A stretch of DNA of 37,867 bases, taken from NCBI GenBank assembly GCA_016764395.1, contig JAESRW010000138.1, positions 1 to 37,867 on the forward strand, written 5' to 3'. The notes below the pieces were generated by a model. That model had not been told where the DNA came from and ran no database searches. It was given only the letters and a program-made list of their open reading frames with translations. Positions 29,709 to 37,867 of this stretch are shown piece by piece. The translations under genes and the position numbers were made by a program. This stretch comes from Flavobacteriales bacterium. Its GTDB lineage: Bacteria > Bacteroidota > Bacteroidia > NORP154. The stretch's first letter is position 1. Every line of letters begins with the position of its first letter.

Positions 29709-30388
29709 CCTCATTAACAACCATCATGACGGAAGCTTATGCGAGGATTGGCAATAAACCATCAGGCAATCCTATACCGGATGAAAAAGCCGCTAGGGGA
29801 ATAAGGGTATTAAACTCTATTCTTGATGGGCTACCCTCGCGCGGTGTTGGTGATATCCTCACGACACGTCGTATTGATTCGTCATTTGCGGTATTAAACC
29901 CTTCTATCATTCATGTGATCGCTACAGGCGCGGTTACCTTAACTATGCCTAAAAAACCTCATGATGGTTATAGAGTAAAAATCCTAGACGTAGGTACGAA
30001 TTTCTCCACTAACAATCTAACCGTTGATAGGAATGGTTGGTTGATCGCAGGCGCTGCCTCTAATGTTGTTTTAAGCACCAATGGTCAATCTAAAGAATAT
30101 TTCTTTAGGGCTGACCTAGGAGACTGGAAAGACATCACTCAGCCTTTGTTGGGTGGCAACGAGATACCTTACCCGGTTGAGCACGATGACGGGTTAGAGG
30201 CTATTTTAGCTCTTCGCCTTGCTGAGAATACGGGCTCAGAGGTCACGCCTCTTTTAGTGAATGCTGCCTCGGTTGGTTTAAGTCGATTACGCGCTAGATA
30301 CCTTCCCGACCTTACAGTTAATCTAGACTATGCGTTATACAGAACACCATCTCATATTCCTCTAGATATCACGGGGCCAGTGGATTAA
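29705..30388 (+). CDS. Head completion / tail accessory protein, P22 gp4-like, with inserted domain
   Basis: Residues 1-55 (LTTIMTEAYARIGNKPSGNP; RGIRVLNSILDGLPSRGVGD) and about 155-227 (VEHDDGLEAILALRLAENTG; AASVGLSRLRARYLPDLTVN) are the two helical parts of gp4-type neck proteins, which ring the portal. Between them, about residues 58-150, lies a beta-rich segment (IHVIATGAVTLTMPKKPHDG; RVKILDVGTNFSTNNLTVDR) that looks like a fibre-type domain. The whole is 227 residues against about 166 for P22 gp4. The assignment also rests on gene order. Confidence 0.78.
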   Translation: MTSLTTIMTEAYARIGNKPSGNPIPDEKAARGIRVLNSILDGLPSRGVGDILTTRRIDSSFAVLNPSIIHVIATGAVTLTMPKKPHDGYRVKILDVGTNFSTNNLTVDRNGWLIAGAASNVVLSTNGQSKEYFFRADLGDWKDITQPLLGGNEIPYPVEHDDGLEAILALRLAENTGSEVTPLLVNAASVGLSRLRARYLPDLTVNLDYALYRTPSHIPLDITGPVD

Positions 30389-31803
30389 TGGCCGGTAAAT
30401 ATATTCCACTTGGTGCTAATACTTATAATGGCAACGCTTACGGCTTCCCGTCTGTCCTTTTGGAAAATTGGTTCGCAGAAGAGGCGGGGGACCGTAACGA
30501 CCGCCCATATAGGTTACTCCCTACACCGGGGCTGACTAGTTTTGCTAGCGGCCTAAATGGCGCTATCAGGGGCATGATTCAATCTGACGGGTTGTTAGAC
30601 AGTAAAGCTGTTATTGCGGCAGGTTCACGCGTTTATTCCATGACAAGCGCGGGTGCTACGGTAGAAATTGGAACAATAACCGGAACAGATGAGGCGCGGT
30701 TCGCCGGAAGCCAATCTGATATGGTTATGACGGCGGGTGGTGTTGCTTTTGTTGTCACGACAGGTTTAGCACCAATTAGCATTCCCGGTGCTACGGGTAA
30801 TATTGTTGATTGCGCAGAGCTGGCTCAGAGACATTTATTTATTGAAGAGGGTTCGGGGCGTTTTTGGTACTCGGACACTGCGCAGCCTGCGAGCGTTCCC
30901 GCGACTAATTTCGCAACGACAGAGAGTGAATCTGATCAGCTTGTAGGCATTCGTGTTGTTGGCGATGTTGTTTATTTGATAGGCACACGCACCACTGAGT
31001 TATGGGAATATACAGGTTCTAAAGATATTCCATTCCGTCCAATTCAGGGTGCTGTTGCTAAGATCGGTATATTCGCCAAAGGCGCTGTGACTGAAGCGGA
31101 TGGAGGGTTGTTCGCCCTTGGGAGGGATCAGGACGGCAATGAGGTTGTTTACCGTATTCAAAACGCCCAGCCTGTAAGGATTTCGACCTACCCTATTGAT
31201 AGATTAATCGCAGAAGTCACAGAAGAGAATAGACCTAGCATTAGATTGTCGGCGCACGGATGGGGCGGGCATAGTTTTATTGGCCTACATCTACCAAGTG
31301 TGGGTGATTACTTTTATGATATCTCGAATGGAACTTGGCATAGGCGCAAAGAATTGGCTGAAAGCCGCTACCTAGTGCAACATTTCTTTGCTGCCTTTGG
31401 GGAGAAATTTGCCGGTGATGTTACGGTCGGGACGGTTTATAGACTCGATTTGGATGTTTACACACACAATTTGAAGACAGTTAGGCGTGTTGCGAGCACG
31501 ATTATACCTGTGACGGATAGCCGCCCAACGATTAATAATCTGACTGTTGAAATGCAGGGTGGTGTTGGCTTGGTTACTGGGCAAGGTCAAAACCCTAAAG
31601 TGATGTTGAGATGGGCGGTCAACGGTAGAACATTTAGTAATGAGTTAACGACGACTTTCGGGCTTGAAGGTGAATTCGGGCACAGGGCGGTGTTTGATAG
31701 CTTGGGAGAATTATACCCACCAGCCGTTGCTATAAATATAGCCGTGACCGACCCGGTTAACGCTACCGTTACCGGATTGGTTATCAATAGGGATAGGTTA
31801 TGA
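30388..31803 (+). CDS. Packaged DNA stabilisation / tail hub protein, P22 gp10-like
   Basis: The 471-residue protein (P22 gp10: 472) has YIPLGANTYNGNAYGFPSVL, then LLENWFAEEA and YRLLPTPGLTSFASGLNGAI at the N-terminus, standard for gp10-type proteins. The middle is beta-propeller-like (RHLFIEEGSGRFWYSDTAQP; VVGDVVYLIGTRTTELWEYT; GGLFALGRDQDGNEVVYRIQ). It closes the portal-gp4 channel and supports the tail needle and spikes. Start and stop overlap both neighbours. Confidence 0.9.
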   Translation: MAGKYIPLGANTYNGNAYGFPSVLLENWFAEEAGDRNDRPYRLLPTPGLTSFASGLNGAIRGMIQSDGLLDSKAVIAAGSRVYSMTSAGATVEIGTITGTDEARFAGSQSDMVMTAGGVAFVVTTGLAPISIPGATGNIVDCAELAQRHLFIEEGSGRFWYSDTAQPASVPATNFATTESESDQLVGIRVVGDVVYLIGTRTTELWEYTGSKDIPFRPIQGAVAKIGIFAKGAVTEADGGLFALGRDQDGNEVVYRIQNAQPVRISTYPIDRLIAEVTEENRPSIRLSAHGWGGHSFIGLHLPSVGDYFYDISNGTWHRRKELAESRYLVQHFFAAFGEKFAGDVTVGTVYRLDLDVYTHNLKTVRRVASTIIPVTDSRPTINNLTVEMQGGVGLVTGQGQNPKVMLRWAVNGRTFSNELTTTFGLEGEFGHRAVFDSLGELYPPAVAINIAVTDPVNATVTGLVINRDRL

Positions 31804-33089: not shown

Positions 33090-33866
33090 ATGCTAGCCAC
33101 ATTGGATGATATTACGCCACTAGAGTTTGAAGTTCCTCCGTCTATATTTGACGGGGTTATGAGCCCTTGTGTGGATGTGGACCACCTAAACAGCATAATG
33201 AATGCCGATGGTGTTAAAGAGTTCATGAAGCTTCCAGACGGCGCTAGCGACCTATCTTGCTTAATAGGAAAACTTCTATTCCTAGCAAATGATCATGGCT
33301 TTCTCGCTATTGAGCAAAAAGCCCGACAATGTTATATGTTCCACACCGCTATATTGCCGGAACACAGGGGCAGGAGCGGCTATAAACTTACAAGAGCGGC
33401 TTGTGAATATATGTTTCTAAATACGGATGCTGTTGAGCTTCACACCTTTACCCCGTTCGATAATCCTAACGCCAAGCCACCTAAAACGTTTGGCTTTAAA
33501 CACTGGTTCGATAATAAAGACGGGGAATTTTACCGGGTTAACATTATGGATTGGGCTAGAAATGCACCAAATCTAGTAAAATGGGGCGAGTTCTTTCATA
33601 ATTCACTAGAGTCAGCTAAAAACGTGCTAGGATCTAAAGTCGAACACCATAACGACGACGAGAGTAACAATAGGTATGCTGGGTTAGCTTGTGGGTTAAT
33701 AAAGAATGGTAATGTCGGTAAGGGTGTTTGGGCTTATAATCATTGGGCAATAACAGCCGGTTACGAGCCAATTGAATTAATATCGAGCAATCCGACTGTT
33801 GTATTTACAGGTGATGCTATGATTAGAGTTAACGGTAATAAAATGGAGTTTTTGTCATGCCTGTAG
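33090..33866 (+). CDS. P22 gp14-position protein with GNAT-like fold, 258 aa
   Basis: Residues 60-150 have the GNAT acetyltransferase pattern: a hydrophobic strand, FHTAILPEHRGRSGYKLTRA, where HRGRSG resembles the acetyl-CoA-binding Q/RxxGxG/A loop, then an amphipathic helix and AVELHTFTPFDNPNAKPPKT and FGFKHWF. P22 gp14 and its relatives have such a fold. The C-terminal 100 residues (LACGLIKNGNVGKGVWAYNH) are extra compared with P22 gp14 (about 150 aa). A true acetylation activity is not established. It is needed in P22 for head assembly or ejection. Starts right after the previous stop. Confidence 0.65.
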   Translation: MLATLDDITPLEFEVPPSIFDGVMSPCVDVDHLNSIMNADGVKEFMKLPDGASDLSCLIGKLLFLANDHGFLAIEQKARQCYMFHTAILPEHRGRSGYKLTRAACEYMFLNTDAVELHTFTPFDNPNAKPPKTFGFKHWFDNKDGEFYRVNIMDWARNAPNLVKWGEFFHNSLESAKNVLGSKVEHHNDDESNNRYAGLACGLIKNGNVGKGVWAYNHWAITAGYEPIELISSNPTVVFTGDAMIRVNGNKMEFLSCL

Positions 33867-34921
33867 GAGCAACATTAGCAGTAGCTGGCGTTGGAGCGGT
33901 TAGTTCGGTTGCCGGTAGTCGGGCAACAAGTAGCGCGGCACGTCATGCGCAAGCCTCAGCTGAAGATATATCTGATCGGCAAATTGCTCTTTACCGTGAT
34001 ATTTTCAACAAGCAGCAAGCCAATTTTGAACCATTTAGACGGTTGGAGTTACAGCGTGCTAATCTACTTGGCAGCTTCTTTGGTTTAACGCCAGAGGGTG
34101 GACAGGCGGGCCAGCAAACACAACAACAGCAATTGTTATCGAGCGCTTCACCTCAGGCAATATCAGCCGGGCAAAACTTTATTAACCAGCCCGCAAATAA
34201 TGACGTTTTGAACGCATTTAACAACATTAGTAACAGGGACAGGCAATTTGTGATGGATCAAGGATTCGATAGCAATAGAGATGGCCAGTTATCGGCGGGA
34301 GAGTTTGGCAACTTCCATTTTGATAGGCATGGACGCGCTGAAGGTAGAACAGGTTTCGAGGCTGTAACTCAGGCACAACCGCAAGGTCAACCTAGCCCTG
34401 TCGCAACGCCAGTTTCCGAAGCACCGGGATTTAATAACCTACCAGCCCCGGAAGTTATTCAAGATCCACGCAATGCTCTAGCGGGGCAAGGTGGTCCTCG
34501 ACCATTGTTTGATCCTAGTATTGCAGGGGCGAACGCAATTAACAATTCTGTCTTTGCCGCGCAAGGCCAAACAGGCTTTAACAGGGAAAAAGATGCTATA
34601 GACGCTAATCTTGCAAAGCAGGGTGTAGTCTTTTCTGGTGCCCGATTGCAAGCTGTAGAGGATGCCCAGCAGCGTGCCGGTGGTAATGTCTTGTCGCAGT
34701 TCTTTAACGTCCTTGCAGGATTCCCAACGGCTGGCCCAGCTACACAAGCTCAAGCCCAATCGGGCAGTCAGTTCGCATCAGGTGTTGGTAACTCTCTAGG
34801 AAATTTAGGGTTAGCACAGCAGCAGTCCGCGTTCCAACAGGGTAAAGCTAAATCTGATATGTTTGGTAATCTGGCAACAAGTGCTGGAAGCGCTATCGGC
34901 GCGTTTAACTTAGGAGGGTAA
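33857..34921 (+). CDS. Ejection protein, P22 gp7-like, with EF-hand
   Basis: The 354-residue protein begins with a hydrophobic glycine/alanine-rich segment (GATLAVAGVGAVSSVAGSRA) and is Gln/Ala/Asn rich, as ejection proteins are. Residues 138-149 are DSNRDGQLSAGEF without the final Phe, a canonical 12-residue EF-hand loop with Asp/Asn/Asp at 1, 3 and 5, Gly at 6 and Glu at 12. The C-terminal half has the typical NREKDAIDANLAKQGVVFSG then ARLQAVEDAQQRAGG. It is probably carried inside the head and enters the cell envelope on infection. It overlaps the gp14-like gene. Confidence 0.78.
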   Translation: MPVGATLAVAGVGAVSSVAGSRATSSAARHAQASAEDISDRQIALYRDIFNKQQANFEPFRRLELQRANLLGSFFGLTPEGGQAGQQTQQQQLLSSASPQAISAGQNFINQPANNDVLNAFNNISNRDRQFVMDQGFDSNRDGQLSAGEFGNFHFDRHGRAEGRTGFEAVTQAQPQGQPSPVATPVSEAPGFNNLPAPEVIQDPRNALAGQGGPRPLFDPSIAGANAINNSVFAAQGQTGFNREKDAIDANLAKQGVVFSGARLQAVEDAQQRAGGNVLSQFFNVLAGFPTAGPATQAQAQSGSQFASGVGNSLGNLGLAQQQSAFQQGKAKSDMFGNLATSAGSAIGAFNLGG

Positions 34922-34925
34922 TTAG

Positions 34926-36170
34926 ATGCCACACCAAAACCCAGCGGCTAACGCAATTAATGCTTTCCAGTCATCAACCAATTTCAGGCAACAACAGAAT
35001 GACAGGCGTAGAGATTTATCAGACAGAGAGTCGAAAGCAAATATAGCGGGGCTTTTAGGACAGCGCTCTTCTAATGCTCTGACAGCTCAACCACAAGGGC
35101 AAACGCCTACCCAGCCGCAAGGTCAAGCTTTTACCCAGCAACCAAACAATAGGCAGCAAGCCGTTGATATTGCTCAACAGTCTGGCAATGCGGATATCAT
35201 TAACCAAACTCGTCAACGGATCGCGGGTATGGATCAAGCTCAACGTGTCCAAGCATTGGAGCGCTCTGAAGCTCTTGGCGGGTTATCTATTCAACTTCAA
35301 AACATGCCTTACGAGCAACGAATTCAAGCTTTGAGGTCACCACAGATTCGTGACTTCTTGATTGGCAGCGGCTTTTCTGAAGAGCAAATTAACTCATTTG
35401 ACCCTACTGATGTAAATATCCAAGCTCAGATGGGCACGGTTGCGGGCGTTCAAGAAGCTCTAACGACAGGTTTCGAGGCTGTAACTCTTGGTGAGCAACA
35501 GTCACGTGTCCAGCGTAACCAAGCGCCAATCGTTAACCCTAACGCAGCACCACAGAGACGAATTGCACAGCAAGGTGCCGACACGGCTAGAATTACAGCT
35601 GAAGCTCAGAGGACGACAGCAGGCGCTAGACGGTTAGGCGCTCAAACAGCAGCTAGAGCTGAAACTAGGGAAGCTCAAAAAGCCCGGTCTGGTGATGATA
35701 GAATATTCAACCAAAACCAGACAAATGCAGCAACATTTGCATCACGCATGCGAGAAGCTGATAAAATTATTTCAGAACTTGCTGAGGATGGTTTTTTAGG
35801 TTCTGAGCTTAGACGGGGCAACATTCCTTTAATTGGTGCCGCTATCTCTGGACAGGTTGAAAGACAGTTCGAGCAAGCTAAAGAAAACTTTGTTAGCGCG
35901 GCGCTGAGAAAAGAATCAGGCGCGGCTATTAACGATCAAGAGCGGGAATCGGCGGCAAAGCTATACTTCCCTGTATTTGGTGATGGTGAAGACGTTATAG
36001 CTAATAAAAGATCATTGCGTAGCCAAGCTGTAAGATTAATGATTTCAAGCTCTCAAGGTGCACTTGAAGCATTTGAGGGAGCCCAACAAAATCAAGGGGG
36101 CGAACCTTCTTTGACAACTGAAGAGCAAGCAGAACTAGAACAGTTAGAGCGTCAGTTCGGAGGCCAGTAG
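34926..36170 (+). CDS. Ejection protein, P22 gp20-like, 414 aa
   Basis: The protein is Gln-rich and helical: NAINAFQSSTNFRQQQNDRR, ALTAQPQGQTPTQPQGQAFT, RITAEAQRTTAGARRLGAQT. The C-terminal third (QFEQAKENFVSAALRKESGA then INDQERESAAKLYFPVFGDG) is a familiar end of phage DNA-transfer proteins. It shares a 22-bp exact repeat with the gp7-like gene (34349-34370 and 35466-35487). It starts MPHQ, like the portal and the gp16-like protein. P22 gp20 (471 aa) forms part of the injection channel. Confidence 0.75.
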   Translation: MPHQNPAANAINAFQSSTNFRQQQNDRRRDLSDRESKANIAGLLGQRSSNALTAQPQGQTPTQPQGQAFTQQPNNRQQAVDIAQQSGNADIINQTRQRIAGMDQAQRVQALERSEALGGLSIQLQNMPYEQRIQALRSPQIRDFLIGSGFSEEQINSFDPTDVNIQAQMGTVAGVQEALTTGFEAVTLGEQQSRVQRNQAPIVNPNAAPQRRIAQQGADTARITAEAQRTTAGARRLGAQTAARAETREAQKARSGDDRIFNQNQTNAATFASRMREADKIISELAEDGFLGSELRRGNIPLIGAAISGQVERQFEQAKENFVSAALRKESGAAINDQERESAAKLYFPVFGDGEDVIANKRSLRSQAVRLMISSSQGALEAFEGAQQNQGGEPSLTTEEQAELEQLERQFGGQ

Positions 36171-36171
36171 G

Positions 36172-37867
36172 GTGCCACATCAAGGTAATACACATCAGCC
36201 AATACAACAAACTCCAAGGCAACGCCTAGAGGAATTGCGTTCGCGACAAGCTCAATCAGGGCCTATAGGCGGTCCTGTTTTGGAGGCTCCAGCGCCACAG
36301 GTTCCGACTGGACAGCCGTCCCCTTCACTTGTCTTGCCAAGAGAGAGGGAGGAAGCAGGAGAACGTGTACAATTTGCTAGGCTTGAAGAGCTTCGCGAGA
36401 AGAAAAGACGGGCAGAAGTTCGCGGCGAGCTATCACAAAGTATCTCCAGATTTACAGACCCGGCTGCGTTGCCTACGGCTATTTTTGGCGTGTCAGCTCA
36501 GTTATCTGGCCTTGCTGGTGATGAGCCTAGACCGTTATTAGGGCGTGCTAGTCAGCTTGCCGCGCAAGGTGCGACATTGGGGTTTGCTGATGAAATTGAA
36601 GCCGGTATTGTAGGCGCCACGCAACCCTTACGGAATCTTACAAGTTTTGGTTCTGGTAGAACTATGGGTGAAGCAGCTCAGCAACAAAGAGATGTAACAC
36701 GGCAACAATTAAAAGAAAGCCGTGAAGCGGCTCCTGTGACTAGCTTTGGTTTGGAAGCGGCTGGAGGTGGTGTCATTGGTGGTGCCCCTGCTGCAAGGTT
36801 CTTAGGCCAAGCTACAAGTCGAGGAAGTTTAGCGGCGCGTAGTTCTGGACTTGGTGCCACAACTGGCGGTGTTGTTGGTTTTGGCGAATCTGAAGGTGAT
36901 TTCGGGGAGCGTTTACCAAGTGCTGGTGTTGGTGCTGTCACTGGCGGGCTTCTGGGTGGGGCCTCTCCCTTAGTTATTGAAGGTATTACTAGAGCGGGCA
37001 GTGTGATCAGCAGGAGTGCTGGTAGGGCTTTCAACAACATTCGAACAGGACGTAACGTCACAAAAGATCAGCGCCGGGCTATGAATAAGATCATGCAGCG
37101 AGTTGAACAGGATGGTTTTACAGCTGAACAGTTTCAAGCGCGGTTAGACCGGGCAAAAGAGCTAGGCATTGAGTCTGATTTCATTTTCGAAATGGCTGGG
37201 CCTCAGCTACTTGATTTAGCAAAAGGTGGCGCGGCAACAGGTAGCGAGGCAGCTATCAAGGGCTTGGCAAAGGTTAGGATTAGACAGTCTAATGTTGAAT
37301 CTCGCGTTGCTGAGGATTTGCGCGCCGCTATAGGTTCTGATGGTTCTGATTTTCTTTCCAGATCGCAGAGTATTGAGAAAGCTAAAATTGCCGCAGCGCC
37401 GCTTTATGCACAATTTAGATCACTGCCACCTATCCCGCGATCTTCAAATGTTACAGGCAGGGCGGGGGGTGAAGCTGGTAGAGCAGCACCTTCCGAACAG
37501 ACATTAAAGTTGGAATCGTTTTTTGATAATCCTTTATTTACGAGAGCCGCTAAACAATCTGCGTCGTCGGCTTTAAGCCGTGATGGTGTTGTTATTGATA
37601 TAGAAAAGAATTTAACACCAGACGTTTTAGACAGAATAAAAAGAACTATTGACGAGCTGATAAACACTGCGCAAAGCCGAACAGACGCGACAGCTGTAGG
37701 TGATTTAACGGCATTGAAAAGCCGATATGTGTCATTTCTTGACGACCAATATCCGGGTATATACTCATCAGCGCGAAAAGCATTTGCAGGTCCAGCCGCT
37801 CAAGAAGAAGCTTTAGAACTTGGCGAGAGTTTAATCAGAAGCGCCAAAGCAAGAAGAGCACCGGAAG
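36172..37867 (+). CDS. gp16-like DNA ejection protein, N-terminal part (continues at 3-746)
   Basis: GTG 36172 is one base after the gp20-like stop; the product starts MPHQGNTHQPIQQTPRQRLE. Residues 1-85 are polar, then come several glycine/alanine-rich hydrophobic stretches (PLLGRASQLAAQGATLGFAD; FGLEAAGGGVIGGAPAARFL; LPSAGVGAVTGGLLGGASPL), which could insert into membrane. A long helical Arg/Gln-rich part runs across the window join. Total 780 residues. P22 gp16 (609 aa) helps DNA cross the inner membrane. No lytic transglycosylase motif is visible. Confidence 0.85.
   Translation, partial: MPHQGNTHQPIQQTPRQRLEELRSRQAQSGPIGGPVLEAPAPQVPTGQPSPSLVLPREREEAGERVQFARLEELREKKRRAEVRGELSQSISRFTDPAALPTAIFGVSAQLSGLAGDEPRPLLGRASQLAAQGATLGFADEIEAGIVGATQPLRNLTSFGSGRTMGEAAQQQRDVTRQQLKESREAAPVTSFGLEAAGGGVIGGAPAARFLGQATSRGSLAARSSGLGATTGGVVGFGESEGDFGERLPSAGVGAVTGGLLGGASPLVIEGITRAGSVISRSAGRAFNNIRTGRNVTKDQRRAMNKIMQRVEQDGFTAEQFQARLDRAKELGIESDFIFEMAGPQLLDLAKGGAATGSEAAIKGLAKVRIRQSNVESRVAEDLRAAIGSDGSDFLSRSQSIEKAKIAAAPLYAQFRSLPPIPRSSNVTGRAGGEAGRAAPSEQTLKLESFFDNPLFTRAAKQSASSALSRDGVVIDIEKNLTPDVLDRIKRTIDELINTAQSRTDATAVGDLTALKSRYVSFLDDQYPGIYSSARKAFAGPAAQEEALELGESLIRSAKARRAPE
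37769..37867. repeat. Terminal direct repeat, right copy (circular closure)
   Basis: Identical to bases 1-99. Joining the two copies yields a circle of 37,768 bp in which the gp16-like gene is intact. Confidence 0.95.

Follow-up and report, generated by a model that had tools for sequence, protein, structure and literature searches.

A candidate EF-hand calcium site in the linker of a gp7-like phage ejection protein, and EF loops in the same gene slot of uncultured phages

The closest described counterparts of the protein studied here are the P22 gp7, Sf6 gp11 and T7 gp14-type proteins (PHROG 598), which have about 230 residues, are encoded by the gene that opens the trio of ejection genes following gp14, contain Ala/Gly-rich hydrophobic segments and match phrog_598 at both ends. 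About 12 gp7 copies are ejected by P22 (PMC8402733), and ejected T7 gp16 refolds after leaving the capsid (PMC8954989). Short-tailed phages pose the open question of how their internal virion proteins regain a fold once they are through the narrow tail channel. The review that describes T7 gp16 refolding mentions neither calcium nor EF-hands (PMC8954989), and no account of EF-hands in ejection proteins turned up in the open-access literature that we searched. The protein described below shares the gene position, the hydrophobic segments and the two-ended profile match of these proteins but is longer, at 354 residues, and contains a linker of ~140 residues with an EF-hand loop; neither feature occurs in P22 gp7 or in any other gp7-type protein of the comparison.

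The window, that is, the whole stretch of 37,867 nucleotides that was analysed, holds a complete and circularly closed phage genome of about 37.8 kb. Its terminal repeat of 99 bases (1-99 = 37769-37867) and the IMG/VR genome UViG_3300029868_000014, which spans the contig-end junction, both show this closure. The portal, coat and head-closure proteins are of the P22 type. The genes run in the order adaptor, Hc3/gp10-like, gp14-like, gp7-like, gp20-like and gp16-like, of which the gp14-gp7-gp20-gp16 stretch matches the gene order of P22. The genes surrounding the ejection protein are as follows.

30388-31803, plus strand: gp10/Hc3-like head-closure protein (phrog_578, E = 5e-77)
33090-33866, plus strand: gp14-like gene, head morphogenesis, GNAT-like, upstream of the gp7-like gene (phrog_651; P22-like position)
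33857-34921, plus strand: DNA-ejection protein of the gp7-like kind (354 aa), from the first gene of the ejection trio (open reading frame; phrog_598, E = 1.1e-7)
34926-36170, plus strand: gp20-like second ejection gene, 414 aa (position; resembles the second gene in locus L005)
36172-37867, plus strand: gp16-like third ejection gene, crossing the contig end and continuing at 100-746, 780 aa in total (phrog_5880, E = 1e-41; circularity; 780 aa in locus L002)

The gp20-like gene had no PHROG match. The products of the portal (25337), gp20-like (34926) and gp16-like (36172) genes begin with the common residues (M/V)PHQ, and the DNA motif TGCCNCAYCAR occurs six times in the window against 0.26 expected, three of the six at the starts of these three genes.

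The phrog_598 ("DNA ejection") match to the gp7-like protein is split in two, covering 33878-34114 (residues 8-86) and 34592-34897 (residues 246-347), and the linker with the EF loop sits between the two parts. The earlier note had already called this a gp7-like ejection protein; the profile match and the P22-type gene position make that assignment solid, and from the family we infer that the protein is a virion component that enters the host at ejection. Its parts are listed below.

33857-34081, plus strand: conserved N-terminal part, residues 1-75, a hydrophobic start followed by a long helix (aligned with L005 and other gp7-like proteins; structure model)
34082-34501, plus strand: variable Q/G/A/N/P-rich linker, residues 76-215, ~140 residues, holding the EF loop; missing or of another kind in every homologue found (alignments; composition)
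34202-34258, plus strand: residues 116-134, predicted at low confidence as the entering helix (in both AlphaFold models, with pLDDT about 50-65)
34268-34303, plus strand: EF-hand loop D138-E149, DSNRDGQLSAGE (sequence and PS00018; weak Pfam EF-hand_5/EF-hand_1)
34304-34327, plus strand: possible short exit segment FGNFHFDR, residues 150-157 (sequence; no helix in the models)
34502-34918, plus strand: residues 216-354, the conserved C-terminal domain, which contains DANLAKQGVVFSGARLQAVEDAQ, a motif of the gp7 family (alignments; profile match)

Residues 1-19 form the hydrophobic segment, and the full-protein AlphaFold model places a confident helix at about residues 20-74.

The loop at 34268-34303 on the plus strand reads GATAGCAATAGAGATGGCCAGTTATCGGCGGGAGAG and translates as D138 S N R D G Q L S A G E149; the next residue is F150. 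A canonical EF-hand had been claimed at residues 138-149, and both coordinates and residues proved exact: PROSITE pattern PS00018 (a 12-residue loop with ligands at 1, 3, 5 and 12, Gly at 6 and hydrophobic residues at 8 and 13) is satisfied at every position, by D138, N140, D142, G143, L145, E149 and F150. It is the sole PS00018 match in the window, where all open stretches of at least 60 aa on both strands (22,281 residues) were scanned. On average 0.041 matches are expected in shuffled versions of the window's plus-strand genes, 0.05% of 100,000 shuffles of the loop-bearing protein produce one, and a stricter canonical EF-hand pattern never occurred in the shuffles. Profile scores were lower than the Pfam cut-offs for both EF-hand_5 (E = 0.019, 14.9 bits against 25.9) and EF-hand_1 (11.3 bits against 25.4). 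Because these scores are sub-threshold, we class the sequence as an EF-hand-type loop and not as a Pfam EF-hand domain. Comparison of the segment with solved structures returned only weak EF-hand matches (E 0.16-3.7). Single EF-hands usually bind calcium weakly.

The shuffling odds bear directly on whether this EF-like loop is an accident or a relic, sitting in a disordered linker without any calcium function in this phage. They speak against it, but the loop was picked out after the whole genome had been read, and the sequence around it fits an EF-hand only in part. Four of the eight canonical hydrophobic helix positions are fitted (F137, M133, F150 and F153), while the other four, at -8 (Q), -4 (D), 17 (H) and 20 (R), are non-hydrophobic. 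AlphaFold models were too weak to speak for or against a helix-loop-helix, with a mean pLDDT of 50.7 for the whole protein with an 8-row alignment and 53.5 for residues 105-175 alone; both show, at low confidence, an entering helix at ~113-134 and the loop, without an exit helix. In addition, the residues QFVMDQG that precede the loop resemble QFRMDQG of other gp7 proteins, and part of the loop may derive from an unrelated family motif. With the recurrence of EF loops described below also set against it, we consider a chance or relic origin somewhat unlikely. We separately rejected the idea that the loop arose from a duplicated copy of the gp7 motif, whose true counterpart is found at residues 241-272; the resemblance between QFVMDQG and QFRMDQG is probably a coincidence.

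Conservation of the loop in homologues, which had been proposed as a check on the EF-hand, was not borne out: it is absent from every homologue found, the nearest being only 29% identical. That nearest relative, in IMG/VR genome UViG_3300038701_001484, shares 51% identity in the head-closure protein and 29% in the gp7-like protein, which aligns at both ends and has a Gly/Asn/Pro-rich linker without the loop in the middle. Among 20 further gp7-type or gp7-slot proteins, P22 included, many of which have almost no linker, PS00018 gave no match; nor did it in six additional hits reached via the portal, or in the examined stretches of the cultured phages CRP-1, HTVC115P and CHOED, whose Hc3-like protein is distant (22-29% identity). 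A gp7-type protein on contig C150 (L011) of the same genome bin also lacks the loop. Close homologues of the window protein were found neither in phages nor in GTDB genomes. Searched on its own, the protein recovered only itself in IMG/VR and among 60 relatives; its alignment with L005 matched only the contig of L005 in IMG/VR and, against 396 genomes of the phylum, only the window protein. Judged by these comparisons, the loop is a feature of this lineage carried in an insertion, and since the nearest homologue is only 29% identical we read its distribution as lineage restriction and not as loss of function. Absence from all relatives found also counts in favour of a chance loop.

Contig C150, which is phage-like, thus provides a second phrog_598 protein in the bin, with a C-terminal segment that by inspection resembles an S74-type chaperone domain; similar tails were seen on the L006 protein and on L193 and L086, two members of the protein family described next.

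We scanned IMG/VR for DNA coding, at EF spacing, for F-D-x-N-x-D-G and E-F, with a hydrophobic-type codon and then a small polar-type codon in between. The scan returned 105 stretches that fell into 14 families, one of them being the window. Family 0 has 34 members of ~400-450 aa, with the loop mostly at residues ~128-188. On most contigs with enough flanking sequence, its gene follows SU10-type adaptor and head-closure-like genes and precedes two large genes; phrog_5880, the family of the window's gp16-like protein, is also matched by the third gene of one such cluster. By gene position only, we provisionally assign family 0 to the first ejection slot. It resembles the window protein (for example L018:6069-7352, L174 and L203) in this arrangement of adaptor, Hc3-like, EF protein and two large genes, in its similar length and in a Gly-rich linker, and differs in that its EF module has conserved flanks of its own, RIQQLMDTQGxTREQAxANQ, and in that no homology extends outside the loop. 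Homology between the two proteins was considered and rejected, BLASTP giving E values of 0.05-0.12 from the loop only and hhalign a probability of 1%. The family-0 EF modules also fall below the Pfam cut-off. To our reading, EF-hands in the linker of an ejection-slot protein family from uncultured phages are new here. Some family-0 EF proteins (L038, L057, L064 and L178) also start with MPHQ.

To avoid selecting for the loop, relatives of family 0 were sought by the C-terminal domain alone. The loop was present in 31 of the 78 loci found in this way, and the other 47, some of which end before the linker, had no trace of loop or flanks; the count was 29 of 73 among loci with the N-terminal region judged present and 21 of 54 after removal of identical C-domains. 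Broken copies of the loop were not seen among family-0 members. Across the 31 loops the ligands do not vary, with one exception: the ligand at position 3 changes from N to S. Over EF-bearing pairs, pN/pS was 0.08 for the loop, 0.20 for the module, 0.22 for the C-domain and 0.47 for the N-region, figures from non-independent pairs with pS near saturation and with membership defined by an intact loop. On these values the family-0 loop is under strong purifying selection. In the C-domain tree, the main family-0 module needs one gain, or gain combined with loss. An unrelated EF module with different flanks occupies the same linker on a distant branch (L231/L233, DLNNDGRLSNEEF). If slot homology is accepted, this linker has acquired EF loops on at least three occasions, the window included. 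A long repeat-rich phage protein (L059:2796-5489, L015 and L074) has EF module flanks as in family 0 (QQLIDRQGMTKDEAIANQQASLDKGFDINQDGVVSGEEF), which suggests that the family-0-type module moves between genes.

These results bear on the window loop in several ways. EF loops that recur, under selection, in the same slot of family 0 argue against chance. The purifying selection fits any calcium role, however, including a constitutive structural site that would already be filled in the virion, by calcium kept with the packed DNA, and would stabilise or oligomerise the protein without any switch at ejection. The presence of all ligands is compatible with such a site; against it, the loop lies in a low-complexity linker that functional relatives do not have, and not in the conserved core, and we view it as somewhat improbable. 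EF-hands often act as docking sites, and a module that comes and goes like a domain could likewise serve to dock a partner helix, from the gp20-like or gp16-like protein or a host envelope protein, with calcium merely structural. No conserved surface is known for this role and the partner is purely hypothetical, making docking the kind of explanation to which we give very little credence.

The reading that we prefer, at a probability of roughly 0.4, is that of a real but optional calcium-binding EF loop in the flexible linker of a gp7-type ejection protein, calcium-free in the virion and binding after exit. In its favour, all ligands are present in a match that chance would seldom give, the loop lies between two conserved halves, and family 0 has an EF module in the corresponding linker of the protein whose gene is located between Hc3-like and gp20/gp16-type genes. 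The patchy presence of the family-0 loop, the selection on it, the second EF module in that linker and the EF loops of tape-measure-like proteins count for it as well. Weighing on the other side are the loop's absence from homologues, the Pfam shortfall, the partial fit of the helices, low-confidence models that have no exit helix, the weak binding usual for a lone EF-hand and the placing of family 0 by gene position only. According to this proposal, the virion would be assembled at the low free Ca2+ of the cytosol, and the loop would start calcium-free, leaving the linker flexible enough to exit via the portal and tail. At the cell surface or in the periplasm the loop would meet Ca2+ and bind it, with neighbouring copies probably pairing their loops, and the segment would fold. 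As some 12 gp7 copies leave the P22 virion, single EF-hands on different copies could pair in this way. The folded segment may then stiffen or anchor the protein in the ejection conduit and render its exit less reversible. The module would come and go in evolution because its benefit is conditional.

A calcium-triggered folding switch on ejection, as the earlier note had put forward, is thus a reasonable hypothesis, whereas release into the periplasm was too specific: since PMC8954989 places gp7/gp14-type proteins at the outer membrane, we widen the site of action to the cell envelope. As an idea only, a precedent is found in RTX proteins of type I secretion, which are unfolded in the channel and fold on external calcium; PMC13224072 describes this calcium-driven vectorial folding. 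RTX proteins use many-site nonapeptide beta-rolls, against a single EF loop in the window protein, and the two share no homology. A bolder generalisation, which we regard as unlikely at present, is that the linker of the first ejection protein may be a recurrent landing site for EF-hands in short-tailed phages, where the rise from low calcium in the cytosol-made virion to high calcium at the envelope would give ejected proteins a one-way cue to fold and the phage ejectosome a ratchet like that of RTX proteins. The case for the window phage is built on one sequence and the parallel on gene position; the finding gains weight because independent, selected EF modules occupy the same slot in other phages. 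A calcium site in a linker that would thread the channel, repeatedly gained and selected in one family, is a concrete candidate for a refolding trigger.

The statement that EF-hands are rare in phage virion proteins held in part: they are unusual in known virion proteins, but they occur in many phage contigs, mostly in small membrane proteins and also in tape-measure-like and family-0 ejection-type proteins, the virion-type proteins being a minority among EF-hands of phage contigs. In a second census, which required D at loop position 3, nearly all of the matches listed belonged to a single family of small membrane proteins, and none was a new ejection protein. EF-hands were found in tape-measure-like proteins at L068, L090, L105 and L112 (Pfam EF-hand_5, E = 3e-5, for L068/L112). 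Like the window protein, these place an EF loop in a large, flexible protein of a type injected by phages; unlike it, they belong to another protein family and another tail type, and they are called tape-measure by sequence inspection only. The commonest phage EF-hand is in a small protein of 100-140 aa, present at L026, L341 and at least ~140 other loci; this protein carries one EF-hand at its N-terminus, ahead of hydrophobic segments, and is perhaps lysis-related.
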